From Lysobacter sp. FW306-1B-D06B (GTDB lineage Bacteria; Pseudomonadota; Gammaproteobacteria; Xanthomonadales; Xanthomonadaceae), in contig NZ_CP151802.1 of the NCBI RefSeq assembly GCF_038446665.1, positions 2,542,001 to 2,606,000 of the forward strand: a stretch of DNA of 64,000 bases, given 5' to 3'. Positions 13,948-52,539 of this stretch are shown here, one piece after another (the first letter of the stretch is position 1; each line of letters starts with the position of its first letter). The notes under the pieces were generated by a model. The model was not told the DNA's origin and did not search any database. It saw only the letters and a list, made by a program, of their open reading frames with translations. A program made the position numbers and the translations under genes.

Positions 13948-13961
13948 TGAAAACGATTACA
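13948..13961. promoter_or_regulatory. LacI-type operator upstream of the lacI-family gene
   Basis: The 14-bp near-palindrome TGAAAACGATTACA has the central CG typical of LacI/GalR operators. It lies 30 bases upstream of the regulator's GTG start, which suggests autoregulation. Closely similar sites occur at 15050 and 36200. Confidence 0.65.
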
Positions 13962-13991: not shown

Positions 13992-15008
13992 GTGTCGAGC
14001 GTAACCATTAAAGACGTCGCCCGCGTGGCGCAGGTATCGGTGGCCACCGTTTCGCGCGCGCTCAATGGCCACGGCAACGTGGCCGAAGACGTCCGCAACC
14101 GCGTCTTCGCCGCCGCGCAGGAGTTGCGCTACACGCCGCACGCCGCCGCGCGCAGCCTGAGCAGCCGGCGCACCCAGACGCTCGGCGTGGTCCTGCCGGA
14201 CCTGCACGGCGAATTCTTCTCCGAGCTCATCCGCGGCATCGACCAGATCGCCCGCGCGCAACGGCTGCACCTGCTGGTGTCCAGCTATCACGGCAATCCG
14301 GAAGAGCAGGGCGCCGCGCTGCGCGCGATGCGCGGACGCGTCGACGGACTGATCGTCATGTCGCCCTTCGTCGAAACGCCGAGCCTGGGCGAACACCTCG
14401 ATCCGTCGCTGCCGACCCTGCTCATCAACAGCCAGGCCGAACTCGACGGCACCGCCGTGCTGGGCGTCGACAACTACGGCGGCGCGGTGACGATGGTCGA
14501 GCACCTCGTCGCCATCGGCCATCGTCGCATCGCCTTCATCGCCGGTCCCACCGGCAATTTCGATGCGCACGAGCGTCTGCGCGGCTATCGCGATGCGCTC
14601 GCGCAGCGACTGCCCGGCACCGCCGAATGGGTGTTGCAGGGCGACTTCTCCGAAGCCTCCGGGCACCGTGCCGGACACGAGTTGCTCGCCGCCGCGCAGC
14701 GGCCCGATGCCGTGTTCGCCGCCAACGACATGATGGCGCTGGGCTGCCTGTTCGCCTTCGCGCAGGCCGGCGTGAACGTGCCGGGCGACATCGCCGTGGC
14801 CGGCTTCGACGACATTCCTCTGGCGCGCTACGTCCACCCGGCGCTCACGACCATCCGCGTCAACATCGCCGAACTCGGCGCGCGCGCGGCCCGATTGCTC
14901 ATCGCGCAGGTCGCCGGAGATGCGGCCAGCGAATCGTCGGTGCTTTCGACGGAGCTGATCGTGCGCGAGTCGAGCGGTTCGCCCACGCCTTCCCCGCGTT
15001 CTCCGTGA
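13992..15008 (+). CDS. LacI/GalR-family transcriptional regulator of the glycan locus
   Basis: 338 residues. The N-terminal helix-turn-helix and hinge are intact ('TIKDVARVAQVSVATVSRALNG', then 'YTPHAAARSLSSRRT'), followed by a periplasmic-binding-protein-like sugar sensor domain ('LGVVLPDLHGEFFSELIRGID', 'PDAVFAANDMMALGCLFAFAQAGVNVPGDIAVAGFDDIPLARYVHPALTTI'). The GTG start at 13992 follows a GGAGG site 6 bases upstream. A longer frame from 13866 adds 42 residues ahead of the HTH and would run through the operator, so it is rejected. The gene directly precedes the TonB-receptor gene, and its likely operator recurs before that gene and at the GH1/ATPase block, so it is the probable repressor of the whole regulon. 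The inducer is unknown. Confidence 0.9.
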   Translation: MSSVTIKDVARVAQVSVATVSRALNGHGNVAEDVRNRVFAAAQELRYTPHAAARSLSSRRTQTLGVVLPDLHGEFFSELIRGIDQIARAQRLHLLVSSYHGNPEEQGAALRAMRGRVDGLIVMSPFVETPSLGEHLDPSLPTLLINSQAELDGTAVLGVDNYGGAVTMVEHLVAIGHRRIAFIAGPTGNFDAHERLRGYRDALAQRLPGTAEWVLQGDFSEASGHRAGHELLAAAQRPDAVFAANDMMALGCLFAFAQAGVNVPGDIAVAGFDDIPLARYVHPALTTIRVNIAELGARAARLLIAQVAGDAASESSVLSTELIVRESSGSPTPSPRSP

Positions 15009-15049
15009 CCAACGCCCGCTGAGCGTCACGGATTCTTGTGGCTGTTCGC

Positions 15050-15063
15050 TGTAAACGATTCCA
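15050..15063. promoter_or_regulatory. LacI-type operator upstream of the TonB-dependent receptor
   Basis: TGTAAACGATTCCA lies 35 bases before the receptor ATG, between it and the regulator gene. It matches the sites at 13948 and 36200 at the central AAACG.TT core. Its position fits repression of the receptor and of the genes downstream. Confidence 0.65.
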
Positions 15064-15097
15064 TGCGGTTCGACATGCTTTTGGAGAGAGGAAGCAT

Positions 15098-18067
15098 ATG
15101 AATTCAAGGTTCCCCCGCCTTCCGTCGCGCAGGCTGCTTGCCTGCGCCCTGGCCAGTTGCCTGGCCGTCGCCGCCCCCGCGGTGATGGCGCAGAGCACCT
15201 CGGCGACCATCCGTGGACAGGTCACCGTCGACTCGGCCCCCGCGAGCGATGCGCAGATCACCGCCACCAACACGGCCACCGGACTCTCGCGCAAGGTGCA
15301 GGCCGTCAACGGTACCTACAACGTCGGCGGCCTCCCGCCCGGCACCTACCGCATCGACGCGGTCGCCGGCGGGCAGACCACGACCAAGACCGTAACGCTG
15401 GCCGTCGGCCAGACCGCCACGCTGAATCTTTCGGCCGGCGGCGTCGCGGAGACCGGTCCGGTCGCAGACGCCACGACGGTCGACACGGTCACCGTCACCG
15501 GTGTGGCGCTGGCGGAAGTGAAGACATCGGAAATCGCCACCTACGTAAGCGGCAAGCAGATCGACATGCTTCCGCAGAATTCGCGCAACTTCCTGTCCTT
15601 CGTCGATCTGGCGCCGGGCATGGAATTCCAGCAGGGCGCCGACGGCTCCACGCGCATCCGCTCCGGCGCCGGCACTCCCAATGGCATCAACGTCTACATC
15701 GACGGCGTCGGCCAGAAGGATTACGTGCTGCGCGGCGGCATCAGCGGCCAGGACTCCACCAGCGGCAACCCGTTCCCGCAATCGGCCATCGGCGAATACA
15801 AGATCATCACGCAGAACTACAAGGCCGAGTACGACCAGCTCAACAGCGCAGCGATCGTGGCCACCACGCGCTCGGGCACCAACAACTTCGAAGGCAGCTT
15901 CTTCTGGGACCGCACCTCCAAGGACTGGCGCACGCGCACGGTCTTCGAGGAGCGTCTGGACACCAAGGCCGAAACCGGTGCCGAACAATACGGCGCCACG
16001 TTCGGCGGCCCGATCCTGCGCGACACGGCGCACTTCTTCCTGGCCTACGAGGCGAAGGAGTTCGACCGGGCGCGCTCGCTGACGCTGGGCGAGGGCTACA
16101 CCATCGACCGGTTGCCGGCAGCGCTGCAGGAAGAGGCCGGTACCGGACTGTTCATCGCGCCCTTCAAGGAAGATCTGTACTTCGCCAAGATCGACTGGCT
16201 GCTGGGTGAGGACCATTATTTCGAATTCACCACCAAGTACCGCGACGAGAGCGAGCTGACCAACCTCGGCAACGGTCCCAACCTGCCCAGTTACGCCACC
16301 AACAAGCTCAACGAGGAAACGCGCGTAGACCTGCGCTACCAGTTCACCCATGGTGCCTGGCTCAACGACGCGCACATCACCTACGAGGACGCTAGCTTCA
16401 ACCCCAGCCCGCTCAACAACGGCGTGGCGTACAACCTGATCAACTTCAACGGCAGCGACGTCAACGCGCGCCTGATCACGCGCAGCGGGGCGGGCTCGGA
16501 CTTCCAGGAGAAGGGACAGAAAGGCTGGGGCTTCCAGGACGACCTGACCTACACGGGCCTCACGGGCCACACCATGAAGATGGGCGTGAAGTTCAAGGAT
16601 GTCGACGTCAGCGCGATCGAGCGCCAGCCGTACAACCCGCAGTTCACCTACGACGTCAACGGCAGCCTCGTCCAGCCCATCCACGTGCGGTTCGGTTCGG
16701 CCCTGCCGGGTGTCGGCGACGGCAGCGCGGAGTCGAGCAACAAGCAGTACGGCATCTATTTCCAGGACGACTGGGAGGTCAACGACCACCTGATCCTCAA
16801 CCTCGGCCTGCGCTACGACTACGAGAAGAGCCCCAGCTACACCAACTTCGTCACGCCCGCCGACGTGGTCGACGCGCTGCGCGCGTCCACGGCGATCAAC
16901 GCGCCGAACTCCGGCGTGAACATCAACGACTACATCAGCACCGGCAACAACCGCGACTCGTTCAAGGACGCCTGGCAGCCGCGCGTGGGTTTCTCCTACG
17001 ACCTCAACGCCGACCAGCGCCACGTGATCTACGGCGGTGCGGGACGCGCCTACGACCGCAATCTCTTCGACTGGCTGCAACTGGAAGTCACCAAGGCCAC
17101 GTTCCCGGCCACCAACGTGTACTTCCGCCGCGGCGACGGTACGTGCCCGCTCGCGACCGAACCGTGCGTGGACTGGAATCCGGCGTTCTTCGATCCGGCG
17201 ACGCTGGCCGCGCTCGCGTCGCCCGACGGAGGTGGACGTGAGGTGTTCCTGCTCGACAACGATCTGAAGGTGCCGTACTCCGACCAGTTCAGCCTGGGCA
17301 TGCGTAACACCGTGGGCGAATGGCTGACGGACGCCACGATCTCGTACGTGGAAGGGCACGACGGCTTCGCATGGTTGCTCGGCAACCGTCGCGACGACGG
17401 CACGTTCTTCGCGCCCGGCTTCCAGTGGGGCTCACCGTTCAACCAGGGACTGGACGGTTTCAGCAACCTGATCCTGGGCACCAACGGCCTCAAGACGCGC
17501 ACCAGTTCGCTGTACCTGAAGGCGGAGAAGCCGTACACGGCCGAATCCGGCTGGGGCGTCACCATCGCGTACACCTTCCTGCACGCGGAGGAGATGCGCG
17601 AGTCGCCGGAAGTCTTCGCGCTGGATTACCCCACGCTCAACCAGTACGGCTGGAACGACGCCGAAGTGCCCGATCACCGCCTCGTCGCCACCGGCCTCTA
17701 CGACGGCCCGTGGGGCGTGACGCTCTCGGGCAAGATCACGCTGTCGTCGAAGATCCCGCGCTACTTCGTCAACTGCTTCGACATCGATCGACCGAACAAC
17801 TGCTTCATCGATCAGTACAAGCCGGATGGCGACTTCGGTTACAAGCAGGTCGATCTGGCGGCGCAGAAGGACTTCGACACCGGTTCGGGCTTCAAGATGT
17901 GGGTGCGCGGTGACATCCTGAACGTCTTCGACTGGGCGAACTACGACGGCTACGACGATTTCCCCGGGAACTTCGGGTCCCCGGCGAACCCCAACTTCGG
18001 TGAACCGAACTCGCAGGTCGCATTCCCGACCCGTACGTTCAAGCTCTCGCTCGGCTTCAACTTCTGA
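15098..18067 (+). CDS. Oar-like TonB-dependent receptor with N-terminal carboxypeptidase-regulatory-like domain
   Basis: 989 residues from the ATG at 15098, which has a GGAGAGAGGAAG ribosome-binding region. After a signal peptide (to 'AVMAQ') comes a carboxypeptidase-regulatory-like beta domain (about 30-115, 'TIRGQVTVDSAPASDAQITATN', 'YNVGGLPPGTYRIDAV'). Then the plug (about 145-255, 'LPQNSRNFLSFVDLAPGMEF', 'NGINVYIDGVGQKDY') and a long beta-barrel ending in 'KLSLGFNF' with the terminal phenylalanine used for barrel assembly. It should move a large ligand, probably an oligosaccharide, across the outer membrane with TonB energy. It is preceded by a LacI-type operator and followed by the GH144-like lipoprotein and an ABC importer, so a glucan ligand is likely. 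Specificity is inferred from context. Confidence 0.9.
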   Translation: MNSRFPRLPSRRLLACALASCLAVAAPAVMAQSTSATIRGQVTVDSAPASDAQITATNTATGLSRKVQAVNGTYNVGGLPPGTYRIDAVAGGQTTTKTVTLAVGQTATLNLSAGGVAETGPVADATTVDTVTVTGVALAEVKTSEIATYVSGKQIDMLPQNSRNFLSFVDLAPGMEFQQGADGSTRIRSGAGTPNGINVYIDGVGQKDYVLRGGISGQDSTSGNPFPQSAIGEYKIITQNYKAEYDQLNSAAIVATTRSGTNNFEGSFFWDRTSKDWRTRTVFEERLDTKAETGAEQYGATFGGPILRDTAHFFLAYEAKEFDRARSLTLGEGYTIDRLPAALQEEAGTGLFIAPFKEDLYFAKIDWLLGEDHYFEFTTKYRDESELTNLGNGPNLPSYATNKLNEETRVDLRYQFTHGAWLNDAHITYEDASFNPSPLNNGVAYNLINFNGSDVNARLITRSGAGSDFQEKGQKGWGFQDDLTYTGLTGHTMKMGVKFKDVDVSAIERQPYNPQFTYDVNGSLVQPIHVRFGSALPGVGDGSAESSNKQYGIYFQDDWEVNDHLILNLGLRYDYEKSPSYTNFVTPADVVDALRASTAINAPNSGVNINDYISTGNNRDSFKDAWQPRVGFSYDLNADQRHVIYGGAGRAYDRNLFDWLQLEVTKATFPATNVYFRRGDGTCPLATEPCVDWNPAFFDPATLAALASPDGGGREVFLLDNDLKVPYSDQFSLGMRNTVGEWLTDATISYVEGHDGFAWLLGNRRDDGTFFAPGFQWGSPFNQGLDGFSNLILGTNGLKTRTSSLYLKAEKPYTAESGWGVTIAYTFLHAEEMRESPEVFALDYPTLNQYGWNDAEVPDHRLVATGLYDGPWGVTLSGKITLSSKIPRYFVNCFDIDRPNNCFIDQYKPDGDFGYKQVDLAAQKDFDTGSGFKMWVRGDILNVFDWANYDGYDDFPGNFGSPANPNFGEPNSQVAFPTRTFKLSLGFNF

Positions 18068-18130
18068 CCCGGTCCGCCGGCCGCCTACCTCGTCGGGGCG
18101 GTCGGCGGACTCGGGGTGTCTTCTTACTGG

Positions 18131-19783
18131 ATGAACAGCGTGCTGATGTTTCAATCGATCCGACGCAGTTGGGGAACTGCATCGCTGGTGGCGGTGCTGG
18201 TGTTCATTTCGGGCTGCGGGCGTAACGAGCCGGCATCACAGACCTATCCGATCGCAGCCGCGCCTCCGGTGGAAGTCGAACCGCTCAAGCCGACCAAGCT
18301 CGAACTGCCGCCGCTGTTCCGCGACATCGAGAAGCGCACGTTCCAGTTCTTCTGGGATACGACGAACGAAGTCAACGGCCTCACGCCCGATCGCTATCCC
18401 TCGCGTCCCTTCGCGAGCATCGCCTCGGTCGGTTTCGCGCTCACCGCGTACCCGATCGGCATCGAGAACGGCTGGGTCAGCCGCCGCCAGGCGGTGGACC
18501 GCACGCTCACCACGCTGAAGTTCTTCCGCGACATTCCTTCCGGCGAGCAGGCGGAAGGCAAGGGCGCCTATCACGGCTTCTACTACCACTTCCTGGAGAT
18601 GGACACCGGCCACCGCTACCAGAGCTGGGTCGAACTCTCCAGCGTGGACACGGCGCTGCTGATGATGGGCGTGCTGTTCGCGCAGAGTTACTACGACCGC
18701 GACGATCCGCGCGAGAAGGAAATCCGCGACATCGCCGACACGCTCTATCGCCGCGTCGACTGGCCGTGGCTGCAGCGCAACGCGCCGTTGATCTCGATGG
18801 GCTGGTTCCCCGAGAGCGGCTTCATCCAGCACGACTGGACCGGCTACAACGAGGCGATGATGCTCTACATCCTCGCGCTCGCTTCGCCCACGCATCCGGT
18901 GGAGCCGGAAGCATGGGAGGTGTGGACGCGCACCTACAACGACTCCTGGGGCGTCTATCAGGGCGAGGAATACCTGGCCTTCGGCCCGTTGTTCGGCCAT
19001 CAGTACAGCCACGTCTGGATCGACTTCCGCGGCATCCAGGACGACTACATGCGCGAGCGCGGCATCGATTACTTCGAGAACAGCCGCCGCGCGGCTTACG
19101 CGCAACGCGCCTACGCCATCGCCAATCCGATGAAATGGAAGGACTACGGCCCGGAAGTGTGGGGCCTCACCGCCAGCGACGGCCCGCAGCAGACGCTGCA
19201 GGAGTTCCGCGGCGAACAGCGCCAGTTCCGCCACTACTCCGCACGCGGCGCCGGCCTGCGCGACACCTTCGACGACGGCACCATCGCGCCGACGGCGGCC
19301 ATCGCGTCGCTGCCGTTCGCGCCGGAGATCGTCATTCCCAGCACCGTGGCGATCCACGAACGCTACGGCGAGTACCTGTACTCCAGCTACGGCTTCCTGG
19401 ATTCGTTCAATCGCAGCTTCGACTTCGACATCCCGCTCAAGACCGGCCGCCTCGTGCCGGGCGAGGGCTGGGTCGCCAGCGATTACATCGGCATCGACCA
19501 GGGGCCGATCCTGGCGATGATCGCCAACTACCGCAACGACTTCGTCTGGAACGTGATGAAGCGGAACAAGTACATCCGCGACGGATTGCAGAAGGCGGGC
19601 TTCAAGGGCGGTTGGCTGGAACCGGTGAAGGAGGGCGAGACCGCATCGACGCAGCCCAAGCCGCAGACCAAGGAAGAGAAGGACGCCGCCACGGCGCGCG
19701 CGCTGGGCGAGGCGGAGTCGCGCGTGAACCGCGGATCGCAGACGCCGCCGCCCGCACCCGAATCCAAGCCGCAGCCGAAGTGA
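18131..19783 (+). CDS. GH144-like glucanase lipoprotein (glucoamylase-like domain)
   Basis: About 550 residues. The signal peptide ends in a lipobox ('VFISGC', Cys about residue 29), so the enzyme is lipid-anchored. The body is the (alpha/alpha)6 'glycoamylase-like' domain: 'FRDIEKRTFQFFWDTTNEVNGLTPDRYP', 'GYNEAMMLYILALASPTHPV', 'FGPLFGHQYSHVWIDFRGIQDDYM', 'GVASDYIGIDQGPILAMIANYR'-like end. Characterised members of this group (GH144) are endo-beta-1,2-glucanases. Its place between a TonB receptor and an ABC sugar importer fits cutting an imported glucan in the periplasm. The last 60 residues are a charged Pro/Lys-rich tail. The start is uncertain: GTG at 18116, ATG at 18131 and ATG at 18146 all keep the signal peptide. 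Confidence 0.82.
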   Translation: MNSVLMFQSIRRSWGTASLVAVLVFISGCGRNEPASQTYPIAAAPPVEVEPLKPTKLELPPLFRDIEKRTFQFFWDTTNEVNGLTPDRYPSRPFASIASVGFALTAYPIGIENGWVSRRQAVDRTLTTLKFFRDIPSGEQAEGKGAYHGFYYHFLEMDTGHRYQSWVELSSVDTALLMMGVLFAQSYYDRDDPREKEIRDIADTLYRRVDWPWLQRNAPLISMGWFPESGFIQHDWTGYNEAMMLYILALASPTHPVEPEAWEVWTRTYNDSWGVYQGEEYLAFGPLFGHQYSHVWIDFRGIQDDYMRERGIDYFENSRRAAYAQRAYAIANPMKWKDYGPEVWGLTASDGPQQTLQEFRGEQRQFRHYSARGAGLRDTFDDGTIAPTAAIASLPFAPEIVIPSTVAIHERYGEYLYSSYGFLDSFNRSFDFDIPLKTGRLVPGEGWVASDYIGIDQGPILAMIANYRNDFVWNVMKRNKYIRDGLQKAGFKGGWLEPVKEGETASTQPKPQTKEEKDAATARALGEAESRVNRGSQTPPPAPESKPQPK

Positions 19784-19790
19784 GCCTGCG

Positions 19791-21125
19791 ATGATCCACG
19801 CGCGCGCGTCCGGCACGGCAGGCATCGGCACGAGGGTTGCGCGCTGGATGGCGTTCGTCCTGGCGATGCTCGCCACGCTCGTCATCGCCGGTTGCGGAGG
19901 CGAGCGCGACACGCGCCAGGTGGTGCGCTTCTGGGCGATGGGCTTCGAAGGCGAGATGGTGCGCCAGCTCATCCCCGACTTCGAACGCCTGCATCCCGAC
20001 ATCCGCGTGGAAGTGCAGCAACTGCCGGTCACCGCCGCGCACGAGAAGCTGCTGACCGCCTTCGCCGGTGACGGCCTGCCCGATGTGTGCGGGCTGGGCA
20101 ACACCTGGCTGGCAGAGTTTGTCGAGCTGCGCGCGGTCGCGCCGCTGGAGCCGTTCCTCGCGCGTACGCCGTCGATGTCGCCCGACGATTACTTCCGGGG
20201 CTCGTGGGACACCGGCGTGATCGGCAGTCATGTGTACGCGGTGCCGTGGTACGTGGAAACGCGCTTGCCGTTCTATCGACGCGACATCCTTGAGGCCGCG
20301 GGCGTGAAGCAACCGCCGCGCACCTGGGCGCAATGGCGCGAGGCGATGGCGGCGGTGAAGCGCCACGTCGGGCCCGAGCGTTACGCGATCCTGCTGCCGC
20401 TCAACGAGTACGAGCCGCTGCTGAACCTCGCCATCCAGCAGCCCGACCCGCTGCTGCGCGACGACGGCCGCTACGGCAATTTCCGCAGCGACGGCTTCCG
20501 CCGCACGCTGGCGTTCTACAACGACATCTTCGTGCAGAAGTGGGCGCCGCCCTTCAGCAACAACCAGATCTCCAACGTCTGGAACGAGTTCGGCCGCGGC
20601 CTCTACACCTTCTACGTCAACGGCCCCTGGAACATCGCCGAATTCCGCAAGCGCCTGCCGCCGTCGATGGAAGGCAAGTGGGGCACGATGCCGTTGCCGG
20701 GTGCGGACGGCCCGGGTGCGTCCGTCGCCGGCGGCGCGAGCTTCGTCGTGTTCCAGCAGGCGAAGAACAAGGACGCGGCGTGGAAGCTGGTCGCGTACCT
20801 GTCGGATCCGCAGGTGCAGGTGCGATTCCACACGCTCACGGGCAACCTGCCGCCACGCCGCAGTGCGTGGGAGAGCAGCCAGGCGCTGGCGACCGACCCG
20901 TACACGTTGCCGTTTCGCGAACAGCTCGAACGCGCCAAACCCGCGCCGAAAGTACCGGAGTGGGAACGCATCGCGCAGGAGCTGCGCATCGTCGGCGAGC
21001 AGCTGGTCGCCGGCCGCTACACCGTGGACGAAGCGGCGACGGAACTCGACCGCCGCGCCGACGCCATCCTCGAAAAGCGCCGCTGGATGATGGATCAGGA
21101 CGCCGCCACCGGAGGTTCGCGATGA
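19791..21125 (+). CDS. ABC sugar transporter substrate-binding lipoprotein
   Basis: 444 residues. A lipobox ('LVIAGC', Cys 35) follows a hydrophobic leader. The mature part is a family-1 extracellular solute-binding protein: 'VVRFWAMGFEGEMVRQLIPDFERLHPDIRVEVQQLP', 'DVCGLGNTWLAEFVELRAVAPLEPFL', 'AVPWYVETRLPFYRRDI', 'GASFVVFQQAKNKDAAWKLVAYLSDPQVQVRFH'. It captures an oligosaccharide in the periplasm for the two permeases downstream, overlapping the first as ATGA. It begins 7 bases after the GH144-like gene, which supports one operon. The N-terminal 19 residues before 'MAFVLAML' may not be translated. Confidence 0.9.
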   Translation: MIHARASGTAGIGTRVARWMAFVLAMLATLVIAGCGGERDTRQVVRFWAMGFEGEMVRQLIPDFERLHPDIRVEVQQLPVTAAHEKLLTAFAGDGLPDVCGLGNTWLAEFVELRAVAPLEPFLARTPSMSPDDYFRGSWDTGVIGSHVYAVPWYVETRLPFYRRDILEAAGVKQPPRTWAQWREAMAAVKRHVGPERYAILLPLNEYEPLLNLAIQQPDPLLRDDGRYGNFRSDGFRRTLAFYNDIFVQKWAPPFSNNQISNVWNEFGRGLYTFYVNGPWNIAEFRKRLPPSMEGKWGTMPLPGADGPGASVAGGASFVVFQQAKNKDAAWKLVAYLSDPQVQVRFHTLTGNLPPRRSAWESSQALATDPYTLPFREQLERAKPAPKVPEWERIAQELRIVGEQLVAGRYTVDEAATELDRRADAILEKRRWMMDQDAATGGSR

Positions 21126-22018
21126 GCATCGCGCCCAGGGTCAGCGCCTCCACCGCCGGCTGGATGTTCGCCGCGCCCGCGCTGGTGGTGATCGGCCTGT
21201 TCTTCGGATTGCCGGTGCTGGCAGCCTTCGCACTGAGCCTGACGGATTTCGACATCTACTCGCTGGCGGATCTGTCGAACCTGCGCTTCGTCGGACTGGG
21301 CAATTACTGGAACCTGCTGCAGGACCCGCTGTTCTGGAAGGCGCTGGGCAACACGATGTACTTCGTCGTGGTCGGCGTGCCGCTGTCGATCGCGGTGTCG
21401 CTGGGCGCGGCGTTGCTGCTGCATTCCAAGGTCGCGGTTTTCAAGCCGTTCTTCCGCACCGCGTTCTTCGCGCCGGTGGTCACCACGGTGGTCGCGGTGG
21501 CGGTGATCTGGCGCTACCTGTTCCACACGCGCTACGGACTGGTGAACTGGGGGCTCACTTCCATCGGGCTGGATCCGATCGACTGGCTGGGCGATCCCAC
21601 CTGGGCGATGCCGACCATCATCGCCTTCGCCGCGTGGAAGAACTTCGGCTACAACATGATCATCTTCATCGCCGGTCTGCAGTCGATCCCCGAGGACCTG
21701 TACGAAGCCGCGCGCATCGACGGCGCCACGCCCGCGCAGCAGTTCTGGAACGTGACCTTGCCGCAGCTGGGGCCGGTGCTGCTGATGGTCGGCATCCTCA
21801 CGCTGTCGGGCTATTTCCAGCTGTTCGCCGAGCCTTACGTCATCACCCAGGGTGGGCCGCTGCAAAGCACGGTGAGCGTGCTGTACCTGATGTACGACGA
21901 GGGCTTCAAGTGGTGGAACCTGGGCAATGCGTCGGCGGTGGCGTTCCTGCTGTTCGCGCTGATGACGGTGGCGACCAGCGGCCTGCTGTGGTTCGCACGA
22001 CGCAAAGGAGCGGAATGA
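21122..22018 (+). CDS. ABC sugar transporter permease (MalF/UgpA type)
   Basis: 298 residues with six predicted membrane spans. The ATG at 21122 overlaps the binding-protein stop (ATGA). The cytoplasmic EAA loop, which docks on the ATPase, reads 'EDLYEAARIDGATPAQQFWNVTLPQLGPVL', a canonical sequence for sugar permease 1. Other typical elements are 'AFALSLTDFDIYS' and 'PYVITQGGPLQSTVSVLYLMYDEGF'. It pairs with the next gene to form the channel. The matching ATPase is not in this operon, and the likely one is at 36310. Confidence 0.92.
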   Translation: MSIAPRVSASTAGWMFAAPALVVIGLFFGLPVLAAFALSLTDFDIYSLADLSNLRFVGLGNYWNLLQDPLFWKALGNTMYFVVVGVPLSIAVSLGAALLLHSKVAVFKPFFRTAFFAPVVTTVVAVAVIWRYLFHTRYGLVNWGLTSIGLDPIDWLGDPTWAMPTIIAFAAWKNFGYNMIIFIAGLQSIPEDLYEAARIDGATPAQQFWNVTLPQLGPVLLMVGILTLSGYFQLFAEPYVITQGGPLQSTVSVLYLMYDEGFKWWNLGNASAVAFLLFALMTVATSGLLWFARRKGAE

Positions 22019-22019
22019 C

Positions 22020-22841
22020 ATGACCCCGCGCCTGGCCCGTGCCATCGTCAACGGCCTGATGATCGCGCTGGCGGTGATCAGCCTCGCGCCGCTGCTGTGG
22101 ATGCTGTCGGTGTCCTTCATGCAGCCCGGCGAGGCCAGCCACTTCCCGCCGCCGTTGTGGCCTTCCAACGCCACGCTGGCGAACTACCACGAGCTGTTCG
22201 CCCGCGCCGGCATGGGCCGCTACCTGCTCAACAGCACGCTGATCGCGACGGTCGCCACGGCCATCGCGCTGCTGCTCAACACCATGGCGGGTTACGCCTT
22301 CGCCAAGCTGAAGTTCGCCGGGCGCGAGCGCGTGTTCCGACTGTTGCTGGCCGCGCTGGTGATCCCGGCGCAGGTGACGATGATGCCGCTGTTCCTGATG
22401 CTCAAGCAGATGGGGCTGGTGAATACGTACGCCGGCGCGGTGGTACCGCTGATGGCGAGCGTGTTCGGCATTTTCCTGGTGCGCCAGTACGCGCGCTCGA
22501 TCCCGGACGAACTGCTGGAAGCGGCGCGCATCGACGGCGCCAGCGAGACACGCATCTTCTTCCAGATCGTGCTGCCCGTGCTCAAGCCGATTCTGGTGAC
22601 ACTGGCGATCTTCGTGTTCCTGGGCGCGTGGAACGACTTCATGTGGCCGCTGATCGTGCTCAGCGATTCGGGCCATTTCACGCTGCCCGTCGCGCTGGCC
22701 TCGCTGTCGCGCGAGCACGTGCAGGACAACGAGATGATGATGGCCGGGTCGGTGGTGACGGTGTTGCCGGTGCTGATCCTGTTCCTGGCGTTGCAGCGGT
22801 ACTACCTGCAGGGCCTGCTGGTCGGGAGCGTGAAAGGGTGA
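22020..22841 (+). CDS. ABC sugar transporter permease (MalG/UgpE type)
   Basis: 273 residues with six membrane spans. The ATG follows the stop of the partner permease by one base and has an AAAGGAG site upstream. Typical MalG features: 'SLAPLLWMLSVSFMQPGE' at the N-terminus, 'PAQVTMMPLFLMLKQMGLVNTYAGAVVPLMASVFGIFLVRQY', and the EAA loop 'DELLEAARIDGASETRIFFQIVLPVLKPI'. It forms the import channel with the preceding permease. The stop overlaps the GTG of the large hydrolase gene. Confidence 0.92.
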   Translation: MTPRLARAIVNGLMIALAVISLAPLLWMLSVSFMQPGEASHFPPPLWPSNATLANYHELFARAGMGRYLLNSTLIATVATAIALLLNTMAGYAFAKLKFAGRERVFRLLLAALVIPAQVTMMPLFLMLKQMGLVNTYAGAVVPLMASVFGIFLVRQYARSIPDELLEAARIDGASETRIFFQIVLPVLKPILVTLAIFVFLGAWNDFMWPLIVLSDSGHFTLPVALASLSREHVQDNEMMMAGSVVTVLPVLILFLALQRYYLQGLLVGSVKG

Positions 22842-25800
22842 GAGCGGTGAAGCGTGTGGCGTGGGCCGGTGTGCTCGTTCCGATGATGGCGTGGGCGCAG
22901 GGCGTCGGAGAGATCCGAGTGCTGGACGCCTTCGAAACCACGACGCCGTGGCAGGTCGTCACCTCCGATCAGGTCAGCGGCAAGCTGCGCACAGTGCCGG
23001 GCGCGGACGGCAAGGCGGTGTGCCTGGATTACGATTTCAACGGTGTGTCCGGTTACGCCGGCCTGCAACGCGAACTGCCGCTGGACTATCCCGACGACTA
23101 CGAGTTCGGTTTCCGCGTGCGTGGCGACTCGCCGCCCAACGATCTGCAATTCAAGCTGGTCGACGACAGTGGCGACAACGTGTGGTGGGTAAACAAGCCG
23201 CGCTTCGAGTTTCCCAAGGAGTGGACACCGGTCGTCTACAAGAAACGTCACATCAGCCGTGCATGGGGTCCTACGCCGGACTCGACGCTGCGCCACAGTC
23301 GCAAGGTCGAGTTCACGATCTACAACAGCGTCGGCGGCAAAGGGACGGTGTGCCTGGACACGCTAACCTTCCGTCGACGGCCGGTGGACACCACACCGCC
23401 GCCGCGTCCTTCGGCACGCGCCAGCGTGGAGATGGTCGGCGGCGCTCCGGCGTTCGCCGTCGACGACGACGCGGCCAGTGCCTGGATCGCACCGGTAGAG
23501 GTGTCGCCCGCGCCACTGCTGGAAGTGGACCTGGGGCGTCTGCGTGAGTTCGGTGGACTGACCCTGCGCTGGGCGCCGGGTCACGCGGCGACGCGGTACC
23601 GCGTCGCGCTGTCTCGCGACGGTCGCGACTGGCAGGACGTGCGCGAAGTATCCAGTGGCAATGGCGGCCAGGACCCGATCGCGCTGCCCGAATCGGAGGC
23701 GCGTTACCTGCGCCTGCAATTTGAGGCCGGCCAGGATGCGCAGCCTTACTCGCCGCCGTACTACGCGCTTGCGGACGTAGTGATCGAGCCGCTGGCCTTC
23801 GCGGCGACGCCGAACGACTTCGTGCGTTCCGTCGCGAAGGATGCGCCGCGTGGGCATTTCCCGCGCGGTTTCAGCGGCGAGCAGCCGTACTGGACGATCC
23901 TCGGCCTGGACGGCGGCGTCGAACAGGGCCTGATCGGCGAGGATGGCGCCATCGAAGTGGGCAAGGGCGCCTTCAGCATCGAGCCGTTCGTGGTGAGCGA
24001 CGGCCGGCTCGTGTCGTGGGCGGACGTGAAGACGACGCAGTCGCTGCAGGACGGCTACCTGCCGATTCCCTCGGTGCACTGGCAGCACGCCGAGTTCGCC
24101 CTCGACATCACCGCCTTCGCGCACGGCGAGCGCGACAATTCCCATCTCACCGCGCGCTATCGCCTGCGCAACACCTCCGACCACCCGCGTCGTTACGTCT
24201 TCGCGCTGGCGGCGCGGCCGATGCAGGTGAATCCGCCGACGCAGTTCCTCAGCACCGTCGGTGGCGTGAGTGCGATCCATTCGATCAGCGCGAGCGAAGG
24301 CGTCATCTCGGTCGAGGGCCGGAATCCGGTGCGCGCGAGCAAGTCCCATGCTGCCTTCGCCAGCCGTTTCGACGAGGGCGACGTGGTGGCGCGGATGGCG
24401 CGCGCGGACTGGTCTTCGTTCTGCGCGGGCGGCTGCGAGACGGGCAACGTGTTCACCGCGGTCGGCCCTTCAACCACGAGCGTGTCCGACGACACCGGGC
24501 TCGCATCGGGTGCGCTGTTGTACTCGGTGGAACTGGCGCCGGGCCAGGCGAGCGAGTTCGACTGGAGCGTGCGCCTCACCGGGAAGGACCCGCAGCCGCC
24601 GCGTCCGCCGATCGACGCCGCCAAGGCACAGGAGGCCACCGCCGCGCTGTGGCGGAGCAAGCTCGACCGCGTGCAACTGCGTGTTCCCGCGCATGGGCAG
24701 CACGTCGTCGACACGCTGCGCACCGCGCTGGCGCACATGCTGATCAGCCGCATCGGACCGCGCCTGCAACCGGGAACGCGCTCGTATTCGCGCGCGTGGA
24801 TCCGCGACGGCGCGATGATCGGCGAAGGCCTGTTGCGCATGGGCCGCGAAGACGTGGCGACGGAGTTCCTTCGCTGGTATGCGCCATATCAATTCGACAA
24901 CGGCAAGGTGCCGTGCTGCGTGGACGATCGCGGCAGCGATCCGGTGCCCGAGAACGACAGCCACGGCGAGCTGATCTTCACCATCGCCGAGGTGTACCGC
25001 TTCAACCGCGACCGCGCCCTGCTCGAATCGATGTGGCCGCACGTGGTCGGCGCGTTCGAGTACATGGAGAAGCTGCGCCTGAGCGAGCGCACGGAGGCGA
25101 ACCGCGCGCGCAATCCCGCGTTCTACGGAATGATGCCGGCCTCGATCAGCCACGAAGGCTATTCGGCCAAGCCGATGCACTCGTACTGGGACAACTTCTG
25201 GGCGCTGCGCGGCTACAAGGATGCGGTGGAGATCGCGCAGTGGCTGGGCAAGGGTGACGATGCGAAGCGGTTCGCCGTCTCGCGCGACCAGTTCCGCGAC
25301 GACCTGTACGCCTCGCTGCGCGCGGCGACGCAGCAGCACGGCATCGACTTCCTGCCGGGTGCGGCGGAGCTGGGCGATTTCGATGCGACTTCCACGACGA
25401 TCGCGCTCGCGCCCGGCGGCGAACAGGGGCGGTTGCCGCAGGACCTGCTGACGAACACGTTCGAACGCTACTGGCGCGAGTTCGTGGCCCGTCGCGATGG
25501 CACGCGCGAGTGGAAGGACTACACGCCCTACGAGCTGCGCACCATCGGCACCTTCGTCCGCCTGGGCTGGCGCGATCGCGCGCACGAGGCGCTGGATTTC
25601 TTCTTCGCCGACCAGCAGCCGCGCGCGTGGAACCAATGGGCCGAAGTCGTCTCGCGCACGCCGCGCAAGCCGTTCTTCGTGGGCGATCTGCCGCATGCGT
25701 GGGTTGCTTCGGATTACGTGCGTTCGGCGTTGGACCTGTTCGCGTACACGCGCGATGCGGACGATGCGCTGGTGCTCGCCGCGGGCATTCCGTCGGGCTG

Positions 25801-26059
25801 GCTGGCGGGCGAGGGCGTCGGCGTTTCGAACCTGCGCACGACGTACGGGCCGCTTGGCTATTCGCTGATGGAGCGCGATGGGCGTGTGCTGTTCTCGCTG
25901 TCGCCCGATACGAAAGTGCCGCCGGGCGGTGTGGTGCTGACCTGGCCGTATGCGACGGCGCCGGGGGCGACGCGGATCGACGGAAAGCCCGCGCAGTGGA
26001 AGGGGGGCGAGCTGAAGATCGAGCGTGCGGGAGCGAAGGTCGAAGTCGCGCTGCGTTGA
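22838..26059 (+). CDS. Large exported multidomain (alpha/alpha)6 glycoside hydrolase with discoidin domain
   Basis: 1073 residues from a GTG that overlaps the permease stop (GTGA), with GGGAG 9 bases upstream. Order of parts: signal peptide (to 'MMAWAQ'), a galactose-binding-like beta-sandwich (about 25-185), an F5/8 type C (discoidin) domain (about 195-315), a beta-rich linker, an (alpha/alpha)6 helical domain (about 600-1000), and a short C-terminal beta domain. The helical domain has 'YSRAWIRDGAMIGEGLLRMG' (W about 654), 'ENDSHGELIFTIAEVYRFNRD' and 'NQWAEVV', resembling GH15-type and amylo-alpha-1,6-glucosidase-type enzymes. I cannot assign a family number. Being exported and co-transcribed with a GH144-like enzyme, it probably processes the same glycan before ABC import. 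Its bond specificity is unknown. Confidence 0.75.
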   Translation: MRAVKRVAWAGVLVPMMAWAQGVGEIRVLDAFETTTPWQVVTSDQVSGKLRTVPGADGKAVCLDYDFNGVSGYAGLQRELPLDYPDDYEFGFRVRGDSPPNDLQFKLVDDSGDNVWWVNKPRFEFPKEWTPVVYKKRHISRAWGPTPDSTLRHSRKVEFTIYNSVGGKGTVCLDTLTFRRRPVDTTPPPRPSARASVEMVGGAPAFAVDDDAASAWIAPVEVSPAPLLEVDLGRLREFGGLTLRWAPGHAATRYRVALSRDGRDWQDVREVSSGNGGQDPIALPESEARYLRLQFEAGQDAQPYSPPYYALADVVIEPLAFAATPNDFVRSVAKDAPRGHFPRGFSGEQPYWTILGLDGGVEQGLIGEDGAIEVGKGAFSIEPFVVSDGRLVSWADVKTTQSLQDGYLPIPSVHWQHAEFALDITAFAHGERDNSHLTARYRLRNTSDHPRRYVFALAARPMQVNPPTQFLSTVGGVSAIHSISASEGVISVEGRNPVRASKSHAAFASRFDEGDVVARMARADWSSFCAGGCETGNVFTAVGPSTTSVSDDTGLASGALLYSVELAPGQASEFDWSVRLTGKDPQPPRPPIDAAKAQEATAALWRSKLDRVQLRVPAHGQHVVDTLRTALAHMLISRIGPRLQPGTRSYSRAWIRDGAMIGEGLLRMGREDVATEFLRWYAPYQFDNGKVPCCVDDRGSDPVPENDSHGELIFTIAEVYRFNRDRALLESMWPHVVGAFEYMEKLRLSERTEANRARNPAFYGMMPASISHEGYSAKPMHSYWDNFWALRGYKDAVEIAQWLGKGDDAKRFAVSRDQFRDDLYASLRAATQQHGIDFLPGAAELGDFDATSTTIALAPGGEQGRLPQDLLTNTFERYWREFVARRDGTREWKDYTPYELRTIGTFVRLGWRDRAHEALDFFFADQQPRAWNQWAEVVSRTPRKPFFVGDLPHAWVASDYVRSALDLFAYTRDADDALVLAAGIPSGWLAGEGVGVSNLRTTYGPLGYSLMERDGRVLFSLSPDTKVPPGGVVLTWPYATAPGATRIDGKPAQWKGGELKIERAGAKVEVALR

Positions 26060-32727: not shown

Positions 32728-33468
32728 TCATTCGCACCAGTGCACTTCCAAGGGTCGGCCGTGCTTGCTGTCCAGTGCGAGCAGCACGGGCCAGCGTTGC
32801 GGGTCGTTTGATGCGACGGCCTGCTCGAAGATCATGCGCTTGCGCTCGCCCTGCAACAGCAGAAGGCGATGCGGGATGCGCGCCAGACCGTACGGCGTGA
32901 GGCTGATGCGGCGCGGCCACTGGCGAGCGCCCGGGCAATCGTGCGCGTCCACGACCGCGTAGTCGCGCGGGCTGGCGAGGATGCGGTCGAAACCTTCCAT
33001 GCCGGGGAACAGCGACGCGACGTGGCCGTCTTCGCCCATGCCGAGCACCGCGATGGCCGCCTGGTTGCGCGCGTGCGCGTTGGCGGTGGCCACCGCGCCT
33101 TCGATGTGGCGGCCGGGCTGCGTCATCGGTTCGAAATGCGCGACGGCGGCGTGATCGCGCAGCAGGTCGCGGTGCACGAGCCAGGCGTTGCTGTCGGGGT
33201 CGTCGGGCAGCAGCCAGCGCTCGTCGACCAGACCGACATCCACGCGCTCCCACTCGAGCGGTGCCTGCGACAGAGCGCGATAGACCGGCCCCGGCGTGCC
33301 ACCGCCGGACAGCAGCAACCGCGCGCGCGGCCGCAGGCTCAGTTCGCGGCGCAGTTCGGCGGCGATCGCCACGGCCGCGGCCCAGGTCCAGACCTCGTGG
33401 TTCGGATGCACGTGCAGCACGTACGCCGCAGCGGCGTCGTCGCGCGGAAGGGGCGAGCGGTCGGCCAT
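32728..33468 (-). CDS. pgl: 6-phosphogluconolactonase
   Basis: 246 residues. It carries the sugar-phosphate-binding 'LLLSGGGTPGPVYRALSQAPLEWERVDVGLVDERWL' motif and the 'IAVLGMGEDGHVASLFPG' loop with the catalytic histidine, both typical of the Pgl (DevB) family. It hydrolyses 6-phosphogluconolactone to 6-phosphogluconate in the pentose-phosphate and Entner-Doudoroff routes. It lies 40 bases after glk on the same strand, so the pair probably forms one transcript that channels glucose released by the upstream beta-glucosidase. Confidence 0.93.
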   Translation of the reverse strand: MADRSPLPRDDAAAAYVLHVHPNHEVWTWAAAVAIAAELRRELSLRPRARLLLSGGGTPGPVYRALSQAPLEWERVDVGLVDERWLLPDDPDSNAWLVHRDLLRDHAAVAHFEPMTQPGRHIEGAVATANAHARNQAAIAVLGMGEDGHVASLFPGMEGFDRILASPRDYAVVDAHDCPGARQWPRRISLTPYGLARIPHRLLLLQGERKRMIFEQAVASNDPQRWPVLLALDSKHGRPLEVHWCE

Positions 33469-33508: not shown

Positions 33509-34498
33509 TTACGCGACGTCCTGGGCGAGCGCGGCGGCGCCGAGCAGGCCCGGCTGCGGATGCACCACCGCCAGGGTCGGAATGCGCGCCATCACCGGCG
33601 AGAACCGGCCCTTGTATTCGAAGCGCTGGCGGAAGCCGGAATGGGCGATCGACGGCAGCAGCTTGGGCACCAGCCCGCCGGTGAGGAAGACGCCGTCCCA
33701 TGCGCCCAGCGTCAGCACCAGATCGCCGGCCGCCGCGCCGAATACCGCGCAAAAGACGTCGATCGTGCGCAGGCTGCGCGGGTCGCCGTCTTTCGCCCGC
33801 GCGGTGACGTCGGCGGGCGTGAGCGGGCCGGGGTCTTCGCCGGCGATGTTGCTCAGCGCACGGTGCAGGTTCACCAGGCCCTGGCCGCTGACCAGGCGTT
33901 CGTTCGACACGCGACCGAACTCGGCCGACATCTGCTGGAGGATCTCGATCTCCTCCGGCGAGTTCGGCGCGAAGCTGACATGGCCGCCTTCGGTCTGCAG
34001 CGGAAAATGGCGGCCGCCGCGACGCAGCAGCCCGCCCACGCCCAGGCCGGTTCCCGCGCCGATGATGGCGAAGGTGCGGTCCTGGCGATCGTGTCCATTC
34101 CAGCCGATGCCGCCCAGCGCGACCACATCCTGCGGACGCAGCAGCGAGGCGCCCATGGCCTGCGCGGCGAAGTCGTTGACCAGGCGCAGCGATTCCAGAC
34201 CCAGCGATTCGCCCGTGCGTGCGGCGGAAATCACCCAGGGATGGTTGGTGATGCGCGCCTCATCGCCGTCCACGCGACCGGCCACGGCGAACACGCCCGT
34301 GCGCGCACGCGCGCCGGTGACGTCCAGGTAGTGCGCGGCGGCATCGGCGAGCGAGGGAAAGTCCGCGACGGCGAACTCGCGCACGCTGTCCATCAGCAGC
34401 GGATCGGTGTCGTCGTGCCGGGCCAGCGCGAAACGCGCGTTGGTGCCGCCGATGTCGGCGAGCAGGGCGTGGGATTCGGGGGCGGAGGAGTCGCTCAA
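33509..34498 (-). CDS. glk: Glucokinase
   Basis: 329 residues, the bacterial hexokinase-type Glk. The N-terminal phosphate loop is 'LLADIGGTNARFALARHDD', the sugar-binding region contains 'NDFAAQAMGASLL', and the ATP site contains 'AIIGAGTGLGVGGLL'. It phosphorylates cytoplasmic glucose with ATP. The start at 34498 is TTG. No in-frame ATG lies ahead of the phosphate loop, so either this weak start is used or the gene starts further upstream. Upstream lies the GH1 beta-glucosidase gene, and downstream pgl. Confidence 0.92.
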   Translation of the reverse strand: MSDSSAPESHALLADIGGTNARFALARHDDTDPLLMDSVREFAVADFPSLADAAAHYLDVTGARARTGVFAVAGRVDGDEARITNHPWVISAARTGESLGLESLRLVNDFAAQAMGASLLRPQDVVALGGIGWNGHDRQDRTFAIIGAGTGLGVGGLLRRGGRHFPLQTEGGHVSFAPNSPEEIEILQQMSAEFGRVSNERLVSGQGLVNLHRALSNIAGEDPGPLTPADVTARAKDGDPRSLRTIDVFCAVFGAAAGDLVLTLGAWDGVFLTGGLVPKLLPSIAHSGFRQRFEYKGRFSPVMARIPTLAVVHPQPGLLGAAALAQDVA

Positions 34499-34782: not shown

Positions 34783-36168
34783 TCAGTAGGGCAGCGGATC
34801 GGACAGCGAACGCCCGTGGCTTGCGATCACCTTCGAGTACCACAGCGCGCTGTCCTTGGGCGTGCGCTCCTGCGTGGCGTAGTTCACGTGGATCATGCCG
34901 AAGCGCTTGGAATAGCCCAGCGACCATTCCAGGTTGTCCAGCAGCGACCACAGCATGTAGCCGCGGATGTCCACGCCGGCGTCGATGGCGTCGTGGATCG
35001 CCCGCAGGTGCTTGCGCAGGTAATCGGTGCGCAGCGGGTCCTTGATGCGTCGCTTGCCGTCGTCGTCCGCCATCGCGGTCGGCGGATCGAAGAACGCCGC
35101 GCCGTTCTCGGTGATGTAGACCGGCAGGTCGCCGTAGGTCTGCTTGAACCACAGCAGCAGGTCGGTCAGGCCTTGCGGGAACACTTCCCAGCCGGTCTCG
35201 GTGTAGGTGCCCAGCGGCTGGCGCACGACGCCGGTGTTGAGCGGGTAGCTCTCGGCGGCCTTGGTCACGCTGCGCGTGTAGTAGTTGATGCCGACGAAGT
35301 CGAGCTTCTGCTTGATCAGCTCGTAGTCTTCCGCCGGCCACTGCGGCCAGGCGTCACCGAAGATCTCCTTCAGTTCCGGCGGGTAATGGCCGAGCAGGGC
35401 GGGGTGCAGGTACTGCTCGTTCATGTAGGCATGCGCGCGGCGAACGGCGGCGGCGTCTTCCTTCGAATCGGTCGCCGGGTACTTCGGCTCGATGTTCACC
35501 ACCAGGCCGATCTCGTGCTTGCCGATCTCGCGATACGCCTTCACCGCCGCGCCGTGTGCGCGCATCAGGTTGTGCGAGGCGATCGGCGCTTCGTACTTGC
35601 TGCGATGGCCCGGCGCCAGCGCGCCGTGCAGGTAGCCGCCGTCGGTGACCACCCACGGCTCGTTGAGCGTGACCCACTTCTTCACGCGGCCGTCGAGCTC
35701 GCGGTACATCACGCTGGCGTACTCGGCGAACCAGTCGGCGATGTCGCGGTTGAGCCAGCCGCCGCGATCGTCCAGCGCCGCCGGCAGGTCCCAGTGGTAG
35801 AGCGTGAGCAGCGGTTCGATGCCGTTGTTGAGCAGTTCGTCGACCAGGCGCGAGTAGAAGTCCAGGCCCTTCTGGTTCACGCGGCCGGTGCCGTCGGGCA
35901 GGATGCGCGACCACGACACGCTGAAGCGGTAGGCCTGCAGGCCCAGCTCGCGCATCAGCTTCACGTCGTCGCGCCAGCGGTTGTAGTGATCGCACGCGAC
36001 ATCGCCGGTGTCGCCGTTGAGCATCATCCCGGGCGTGTGCGCGAAGCGCGTCCAGATGCTCGGGCCGGCGCCATCGGCCAGCGGCGAGCCTTCGATCTGA
36101 TGGGCGGCGGTGGCGGCGCCCCACAGGAAGCCCTTGGGGAATGCGAACTGATCGGACGCTTGACTCAT
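34783..36168 (-). CDS. GH1 beta-glucosidase
   Basis: 461 residues, cytoplasmic (no signal peptide). GH1 signatures: 'FPKGFLWGAATAAHQIEGS' near the start, the acid/base glutamate in 'TLNEPW' (E170) and the nucleophile in 'YITENG' (E354), plus 'GYMLWSLLDNLEWSLGYSKRFG' near the end. It releases glucose from beta-glucosides. The ATG at 36168 is preferred over the longer frame to 36246, because the longer frame would run through the LacI-type operator at 36200-36213. It is divergent from the ABC ATPase and upstream of glk and pgl. The linkage preferred cannot be read from sequence. Confidence 0.93.
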   Translation of the reverse strand: MSQASDQFAFPKGFLWGAATAAHQIEGSPLADGAGPSIWTRFAHTPGMMLNGDTGDVACDHYNRWRDDVKLMRELGLQAYRFSVSWSRILPDGTGRVNQKGLDFYSRLVDELLNNGIEPLLTLYHWDLPAALDDRGGWLNRDIADWFAEYASVMYRELDGRVKKWVTLNEPWVVTDGGYLHGALAPGHRSKYEAPIASHNLMRAHGAAVKAYREIGKHEIGLVVNIEPKYPATDSKEDAAAVRRAHAYMNEQYLHPALLGHYPPELKEIFGDAWPQWPAEDYELIKQKLDFVGINYYTRSVTKAAESYPLNTGVVRQPLGTYTETGWEVFPQGLTDLLLWFKQTYGDLPVYITENGAAFFDPPTAMADDDGKRRIKDPLRTDYLRKHLRAIHDAIDAGVDIRGYMLWSLLDNLEWSLGYSKRFGMIHVNYATQERTPKDSALWYSKVIASHGRSLSDPLPY

Positions 36169-36199
36169 CGGTACGGTGGCCTGACGGGGTGGATAGGCA

Positions 36200-36213
36200 T
36201 GAAAACGGTTACA
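36200..36213. promoter_or_regulatory. LacI-type operator between GH1 beta-glucosidase and ABC ATPase genes
   Basis: TGAAAACGGTTACA matches the site before the lacI-family gene at 13 of 14 positions. It lies 32 bases upstream of the GH1 start and 97 bases upstream of the ATPase start on the other strand, so one repressor could control both directions. Confidence 0.65.
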
Positions 36214-36309
36214 TGGCAGGATAGCGGACGCCGGTGACATTTGCATCGCCGGCGCGTCGAAAATGCCGGTACGGTCCGTCGAGGCCGCCCAGGGGCTCCC
36301 GAGGAATTC

Positions 36310-52328: not shown

Positions 52329-52539
52329 GGCCGGGGCCGGGAATACGGGGCAGGCCATCGTGACCGCCCGGGCCGCCGCCGTAAACAGACGGTGTCCCGG
52401 ACGGAAGGTGAGCGCTCCCATCGGACGTTCATCCGCGCGCGGCACAACGGCTTATGACGCAACCCGTTTCCCCCGTGAATTTCGCAATGCGGCGCCCGCG
52501 CGCCTGCTCCTATACTCGGCGCAAACTTGGGGAGATCGC

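Follow-up and report, generated by a model that had tools for sequence, protein, structure and literature searches.

A predicted LacI-controlled regulon for beta-1,2-glucan uptake and use in Lysobacter sp. FW306-1B-D06B

Which sugar polymer is served by a seven-gene locus of Lysobacter sp. FW306-1B-D06B, and how far does the system extend beyond these genes? The window analysed here is a stretch of 64,000 nucleotides (contig NZ_CP151802.1 of assembly GCF_038446665.1, positions 2,542,001 to 2,606,000), and positions 13992-26059 within it carry genes for a LacI-family regulator, a TonB-dependent receptor, a lipoprotein with the PF10091 domain, an ATP-binding cassette (ABC) sugar-binding lipoprotein, two ABC permeases and an exported product of 1073 residues, referred to here as P2. 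All seven were found on the strand and in the order described in an earlier note on this DNA, which had read them as an operon for uptake and breakdown of a glucan, probably beta-1,2-linked. We propose that they belong to a LacI-controlled regulon for beta-1,2-glucan uptake and use, to which we give a probability of roughly 0.88. The proposal starts from what can be read directly from the genome and its relatives, namely gene content and order, their conservation, the sharing of operators and the clan residues of a glycoside hydrolase (GH) of family GH144.

The GH144 lipoprotein and the sugar importer

The product of 18131-19783 matches PF10091 with 295.6 bits against a cut-off of 27 (E-value 2.8e-88) and is the sole match to this family at an E-value of 0.001 in the 4.24-Mb genome. 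Its closest solved chain is 8xul, the Xanthomonas campestris enzyme XCC2207 (XcSGL), which aligns over residues 36-549 with an E-value of 1e-269. The earlier note had called this lipoprotein GH144-like, to be doubted should it fail to score with PF10091; it does score, and the nearest structure agrees. Sister families were compared through those with solved chains, by pairwise scores in place of an all-family tree, and on this basis the product reaches 899 bits with XcSGL (GH144), 167 with the CpSGL chains and 33 with PgSGL3 (GH194). The residues of the SGL clan are present as E241, F288 and Y369, equivalent to E239, F286 and Y367 of XcSGL (positions counted by hand on the alignment, letters checked); the crystallised XcSGL is the E239Q variant (PMC12102758; here and below, PMC numbers refer to the portions of each paper that were available). 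Membership of GH192-194 was also considered, as the paper describing the best-matching structure founds those families, and that paper puts XcSGL itself in GH144 (PMC12102758). Judged by its sequence, the 18131-19783 product is a true GH144 member. With beta-1,2-glucan alditol as substrate XcSGL has an activity of 3.85 U/mg, and with the other polysaccharides examined it stays under 0.2% of this value (PMC12102758); by analogy with this characterised relative the Lysobacter enzyme is likely to act in the same way.

The binding protein offers a second line of evidence. Its top structure match is 3uor (1e-160), deposited as a sugar-binding protein and presumably a Xanthomonas homologue of it, followed by Lin1841 of Listeria innocua (5ysb, 3.4e-62), with the next entry at 1e-28. 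Lin1841 is described as a subunit that binds sophoro-oligosaccharides of 3 to 5 units (PMC12369401), so that its relation to the binding protein bears on the substrate independently of GH144, and a similar specificity would be expected of the Lysobacter protein by analogy. The two relations, to XcSGL and to Lin1841, together favour the beta-1,2-glucan substrate that had been suggested earlier.

The seven-gene operon itself has no ATPase gene. However, a MalK-type ATPase is encoded about 10 kb downstream, in a divergent pair with a GH1 beta-glucosidase, and with it the binding protein and the two permeases make up the parts of a CUT1-type importer. The extent given in the earlier note is thus right for the seven genes and too short for the system, which reaches past 26059 to this omitted pair at 34783-37410. 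Overlapping starts, also described there, are real at 21122/21125 and 22838/22841; the order of the gene starts likewise stands, with the correction that the TonB receptor gene has its first ATG at 15098 and not 15038. The coordinates of the features are collected in Table 1.

Table 1. Genes and predicted operators of the proposed regulon and nearby genes for glucose use (positions within the window).
Feature	Position	Strand	Basis
Predicted LacI-type operator before lacI, TGAAAACGATTACA	13948..13961	+	pattern search
LacI-family regulator, GTG start	13992..15008	+	PF00356 1.7e-17; Peripla_BP_3 (PF13377) 4.9e-39
Predicted LacI-type operator before TonB receptor gene, TGTAAACGATTCCA	15050..15063	+	pattern search
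TonB-dependent Oar-like outer-membrane receptor	15098..18067	+	PF25183 9.6e-53; PF00593 3.3e-11; CarboxypepD_reg (PF13620)
Predicted GH144 endo-beta-1,2-glucanase lipoprotein (lipobox by eye)	18131..19783	+	PF10091; 8xul/XcSGL
ABC sugar-binding lipoprotein, Lin1841-like (lipobox by eye)	19791..21125	+	SBP_bac_1 (PF01547) 5.4e-36; 3uor, 5ysb
ABC permease A, UgpA/MalF type	21122..22018	+	BPD_transp_1 (PF00528); best NCBIfam match UgpA, below cut-off
ABC permease B, UgpE/MalG type	22020..22841	+	BPD_transp_1 (PF00528); best NCBIfam match UgpE, below cut-off
P2, exported (signal by eye), 1073 aa	22838..26059	+	profile and fold comparisons
6-phosphogluconolactonase	32728..33468	-	PF01182
Glucokinase	33509..34498	-	PF02685
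GH1 beta-glucosidase, without signal peptide (by eye)	34783..36168	-	PF00232 2.7e-162; start by sequence
Predicted LacI-type operator in GH1/ATPase divergent promoter, TGAAAACGGTTACA	36200..36213	+	pattern search
MalK/UgpC-type ABC ATPase	36310..37410	+	PF00005, PF08402, PF17912; start by sequence

Operators, locus architecture and conservation

The tie between the operon and the distant pair is a shared LacI-type operator of 14 bases. A broad operator pattern occurs at exactly three places in the genome, which are the three sites of the system (reversed control 0), and in the window it gives five strand-matches with at most one mismatch against 0.14 expected. As all three sites were already known when this pattern was drawn up, a fairer test is given by a pattern built from the lacI and TonB sites only, which with at most one mismatch finds four places in the 4.24 Mb, three of them belonging to the system; the GH1/ATPase promoter site is thereby recovered from the other two alone. 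The fourth operator-like site, with one mismatch, lies at C1:537562-537575. No operator was found before the glucokinase or 6-phosphogluconolactonase gene among the sites of the window pattern search.

The same sites are seen in relatives. The comparison covers 80 related loci (1.75 Mb), the best 80 of at least 563 P2 relatives, and of the 163 operator-like sites in them, 162 are found no more than 350 bases upstream of a gene for LacI, TonB, GH144 or the ATPase. A site precedes lacI in 61 of 67 loci, those without it being L024, L045, L076 and the Duganella loci L077, L080 and L082, and a site stands between lacI and the TonB gene in 15 of 65. Ahead of the GH144 gene there are sites in 38 loci; the ATPase gene is encoded on the plus strand in 42 loci, and 32 of these have a site before it. 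The GH1/ATPase gap has one in 13 of the 17 loci with this divergent pair. The regulator would be expected to bind all three operators in the window, and their sharing suggests that the GH1/ATPase pair is part of the same regulon as the operon and that the ATPase serves its importer. Among solved structures, the GH1 enzyme is closest to chains named simply beta-glucosidase.

Gene order is conserved in the related loci. Of the 80, 78 offer 5 kb or more of sequence upstream of P2 and could be tested (L063 and L066 were left out), and in all 78 the order GH144, binding protein, permease A, permease B and P2 is kept on one strand, with LacI found in 67 and TonB in 69. Six loci (L075, L077, L078, L080, L082, L085) have the GH1 gene immediately behind P2 in the same orientation. 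Beyond the class, family f212 is represented by four genomes with P2, three of them carrying the operon (L192, L193, L194), permease B having been missed by the open reading frame (ORF) caller in L193 and L194; the fourth, L195, ends at a contig edge. On a Croceibacterium plasmid the TonB, GH144 and P2 genes are adjacent with a GH3 gene near, and Xanthomonas sacchari has the same core order with a ugpC ATPase gene and edd, pgl, glk and zwf near P2. P2 there lies on a plasmid (L002:20001-23050); its match is split into four parts and the incomplete gene table shows no gene for it, so that it may be a pseudogene. The nearest copy of the whole locus is in Lysobacter sp. MMG2, where it is near-identical (P2 98%, GH144 100%).

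In its architecture the locus brings together a TonB receptor, an inner-membrane transporter, a degrading enzyme and a regulator, as is the case for CUT-type loci. It is not of the SusCD type, no SusD family being listed by Pfam at an E-value of 0.01 for any of the seven proteins, and in the same scan no plug domain is listed for the TonB receptor. The combination of TonB receptor and ABC importer had been regarded in the earlier note as a less common design. This is not upheld, as the design is conserved across Lysobacteraceae and beyond and has already been proposed for a cluster of Ignavibacterium album (PMC8861115).

Two further features of the window are recorded. The stretch 26418-30763, which separates P2 from the GH1/ATPase pair, codes for an RND efflux pump and its adaptor, identified by ORF reading and matches to relatives; in the flanks covered, only three of 78 related loci have a match to the pump, which may be a lineage insertion. 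A large bacterial alpha-2-macroglobulin gene with many bMG domains is at 52327-57489.

P2, an exported six-hairpin glycosidase

P2 is modular in structure, with an N-terminal beta domain, a discoidin/CBM32-like domain and a glycosidase domain of supersandwich and six-hairpin type. In the Pfam scan only discoidin-type domains (PF00754, PF22633) exceed the cut-off. Profile comparison with hhalign relates P2 to GH15 (E-value 9e-8, probability 94, with a GH15 profile of three sequences) and more weakly to SOGP/GH94 (2e-4, probability 45), and residue E921 aligns with two acidic residues close to the C-terminus of GH15. Together with E690 and D692 it is a candidate for the acid or base of the enzyme (residues numbered as in the 1058-residue form; 15 is added for the 1073-residue form). 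The best Foldseek match is a dextran dextrinase (E-value 5e-17), which we take to be a GH15 enzyme. This profile and fold similarity is common to other six-hairpin families and so is not diagnostic of GH15. Pfam scans of the window P2 and of 44 P2-type members gave no match to the GH15 domain PF00723, and 17 of the 44 match the amylo-alpha-1,6-glucosidase domain PF06202 (GDE_C), at best with 1.3e-5. The window P2 stays below the cut-off for the GH78-type PF17389 (20.2 bits against 24.5), and searches with PF06202 and PF17389 in 27 genomes returned nothing to align. P2 is probably a carbohydrate-binding six-hairpin glycosidase with a GH15-like profile and no assigned family.

Relatives of P2 are also found apart from this operon. 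A second P2-type paralogue, about 33% identical, is present in the same-family genomes G274, G651 and G742, and G633 has only the paralogue; that of G274 (L094:10347-13466) is near ABC and HlyD-like genes, with no GH144 matched in that stretch. Methylocystis and Methylosinus plasmids encode a discoidin glycosidase of 957 amino acids that is 28-29% identical to P2 (L005:9575-12448, L006:9575-12448) and has thousands of homologues; no GH144 was found near these distant relatives on the plasmids.

A draw of 369 genomes of the class has P2 in 13 (in G199 as a fragment), and six of the 13 have a clear free-standing GH144 match, which in G091 and G174 is on another contig than P2. The surroundings of P2 were read in nine of these 13 genomes, one neighbourhood in each. 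In L093 P2 lies behind two GH186 genes, and in L089 it is accompanied by genes for GH186, an ATPase, a binding protein, a permease, GH94 and GH1. A SOGP gene comes after P2 in L091 and L092, and L095 has a homologue of this gene; L090 has a GH94-like neighbour, recognised by eye only. No beta-1,2-glucan partner was seen in the neighbourhoods L087, L088 and L094, the last being that of the 33% paralogue. In most contexts seen, then, P2 belongs with beta-1,2-glucan use. The GH94-type protein beside P2 in L089 (L089:4488-8330) has 1280 amino acids and is possibly a beta-1,2-glucan phosphorylase.

As to what P2 does there, quite possibly, though at less than even odds, its target is a beta-1,2-oligosaccharide or a side branch and not an alpha bond; it might, for example, work as an exo-enzyme or attack beta-1,6 branches. 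Such a role would suit the close association of P2 with GH144 and the transporter and, in other places, with SOGP genes, and the six-hairpin fold is also found in cellobiose phosphorylases and a GH116 beta-glucosidase; five P2 genomes, moreover, have no MdoG match of their own. However, the importer and the GH1 enzyme should already be able to handle plain beta-1,2-oligosaccharides, and the GH15 profile match is the stronger one.

Alpha-1,6-cyclised beta-1,2-glucans are reported for Ralstonia solanacearum, Xanthomonas campestris and Cereibacter sphaeroides (PMC11842490), and alpha-1,6-cyclised beta-1,2-glucohexadecaose is described as vital to plant infection by Xanthomonas campestris (PMC11228985). 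A more doubtful possibility, which would refine the beta-1,2-glucan regulon and not replace it, is that P2 hydrolyses the single alpha-1,6 bond of such molecules and makes the whole ring usable. Pointing in this direction are the profile nearer to GH15 than to SOGP/GH94, the dextran dextrinase match and the PF06202 matches of P2-type members, and also the position of P2 beside GH186 (L089, L093) or SOGP (L091, L092) where GH144 does not adjoin. In the class draw GH186 (PF04349) occurs in 59 genomes, comprising 13 of 13 with P2 against 46 of 356 others. The alpha-1,6-cyclising clade 3 of GH186 is marked by W/Y76, D343 and R477 of XccOpgD (PMC11228985), and this signature is present in 8 of the 13 P2 genomes against 1 of the 46 GH186-positive, P2-negative genomes; when the fragment genome G199 is set aside, the counts for P2 genomes are 12 of 12 for GH186 and 7 of 12 for the signature. 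The Fisher values for this co-occurrence take no account of phylogeny.

The co-occurrence is weakened by a second draw, which took 398 genomes from the phylum and partly overlaps the first. GH186 is present in only 6 of its 12 P2 genomes and in two (G651, G742) of the eight that are new, one of which, G633, has only the distant paralogue; the five P2 genomes outside the class are without GH186. The signature is also carried by 10 of 28 sampled GH186-positive, P2-negative genomes, a rate that is not unbiased, coming as it does from 33 sequences of 28 out of 103 such genomes, the first 13 sequences having been taken from the top of the score list. The OpgD of the Lysobacter genome itself lacks the clade 3 signature, with Y, S and H at the columns of W/Y76, D343 and R477. 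The link between P2 and GH186 is thus strong in the class draw and not repeated in the second, so that opening of the alpha-1,6 bond can be put forward only tentatively. The stronger form of the idea, in which P2 founds a new, GH15-like GH family of exported enzymes opening the alpha-1,6 bond of alpha-1,6-cyclised beta-1,2-glucan, is rather unlikely.

Proposed pathway and related systems

In the proposed pathway, the TonB receptor would bring the glucan or large fragments of it across the outer membrane, and the GH144 lipoprotein would cut it endolytically to sophoro-oligosaccharides, with exported P2 handling a linkage or end beyond the reach of GH144 and the transporter. The binding protein, the two permeases and the MalK-type ATPase would import the oligosaccharides, which a cytosolic GH1 beta-glucosidase may convert to glucose for use by glucokinase and enzymes of the pentose-phosphate and Entner-Doudoroff pathways; the cell location of each step is likewise a prediction. 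For a GH1 enzyme acting on sophoro-oligosaccharides there is a precedent in Streptomyces griseus (PMC12369401).

Several points weigh against the beta-1,2-glucan regulon. The GH1 and TonB families have many other substrates, and of the 78 testable loci 11 gave no LacI match and 9 no TonB match; a matched TonB gene may also lie outside the operon. The 80 best-scoring loci over-represent near kin.

Two other accounts concern the substrate as a whole. It is improbable that the regulon serves to recycle osmoregulated periplasmic glucan made by the cell itself and not to scavenge. The genome does have an opgD-type gene, and the adjoining gene on the same strand looks by eye like opgH, but a periplasmic glucan needs no TonB receptor and the same operon is found in family f212 genomes without any MdoG match. 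Another glucan or sugar, such as maltose, trehalose or cello- or laminari-oligosaccharides, could be accommodated by the generic LacI, ABC and MalK families and the generic record annotations, but is very improbable given the GH144 assignment and the relation to Lin1841.

The kind of system proposed is already known, its plan being similar to that of published beta-1,2-glucan clusters, one of them in the Gram-positive Listeria innocua. The lin1839-lin1841 cluster of that species has a sophoro-oligosaccharide-binding protein homologous to the one here, but it differs in its GH94 phosphorylase and GH3 beta-glucosidase, and neither a TonB receptor nor GH144 is named in the available part of the paper (PMC12369401). 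Streptomyces griseus SGR_2422-2427 likewise combines an ABC importer with a GH1 beta-1,2-glucosidase; in that cluster GH193 replaces GH144, and the same portion of the paper names no TonB receptor and no P2 (PMC12369401). For the GH144/SOGP/GH35 cluster of Ignavibacterium album, TonB transport, GH144 hydrolysis and Lin1841-like ABC import have been proposed, but it has SOGP-type and GH35 enzymes, and P2 is not named in the sections available (PMC8861115). The discussion of that paper states that the cluster lacks a beta-glucosidase homologue, though a putative GH3 is listed in its introduction (PMC8861115).

Within Xanthomonas, the XCC2207 (XcSGL) locus of Xanthomonas campestris holds the nearest characterised GH144, and Xanthomonas loci share the same core order. 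XCC2208, which to judge by its number lies next to XCC2207, is a TonB receptor listed among those that lack a canonical plug (PMC1790865). In the literature on XCC2203 to XCC2208 only XCC2207 and XCC2208 were found named, and only the GH144 enzyme was found assayed. The Xanthomonas sux CUT locus also unites a TonB receptor, an inner-membrane transporter, a degrading enzyme and a regulator, but in place of the ABC importer and GH144 it has an amylosucrase and a single gene for an inner-membrane sugar transporter (PMC1790865). Among the papers listed by a literature search, with most subscription journals outside its scope, none was seen that presents the Xanthomonas/Lysobacter operon as a beta-1,2-glucan regulon or reports an enzyme cutting the alpha-1,6 bond. 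The parts for which no description was found are the regulon with its ATPase and GH1 enzyme, and P2.

Through this reading, a set of generic annotations (glucoamylase family protein, discoidin domain protein, sugar ABC transporter) becomes one testable beta-1,2-glucan pathway, which would cover Lysobacter, Xanthomonas, Stenotrophomonas and others, and P2 is singled out as an enzyme of no assigned family for which only a few substrates need to be assayed. If P2 does open the alpha-1,6 bond, it would be useful as a laboratory tool for opening the ring and, in nature, would supply the missing step for bacteria that consume each other's cyclic periplasmic glucans.
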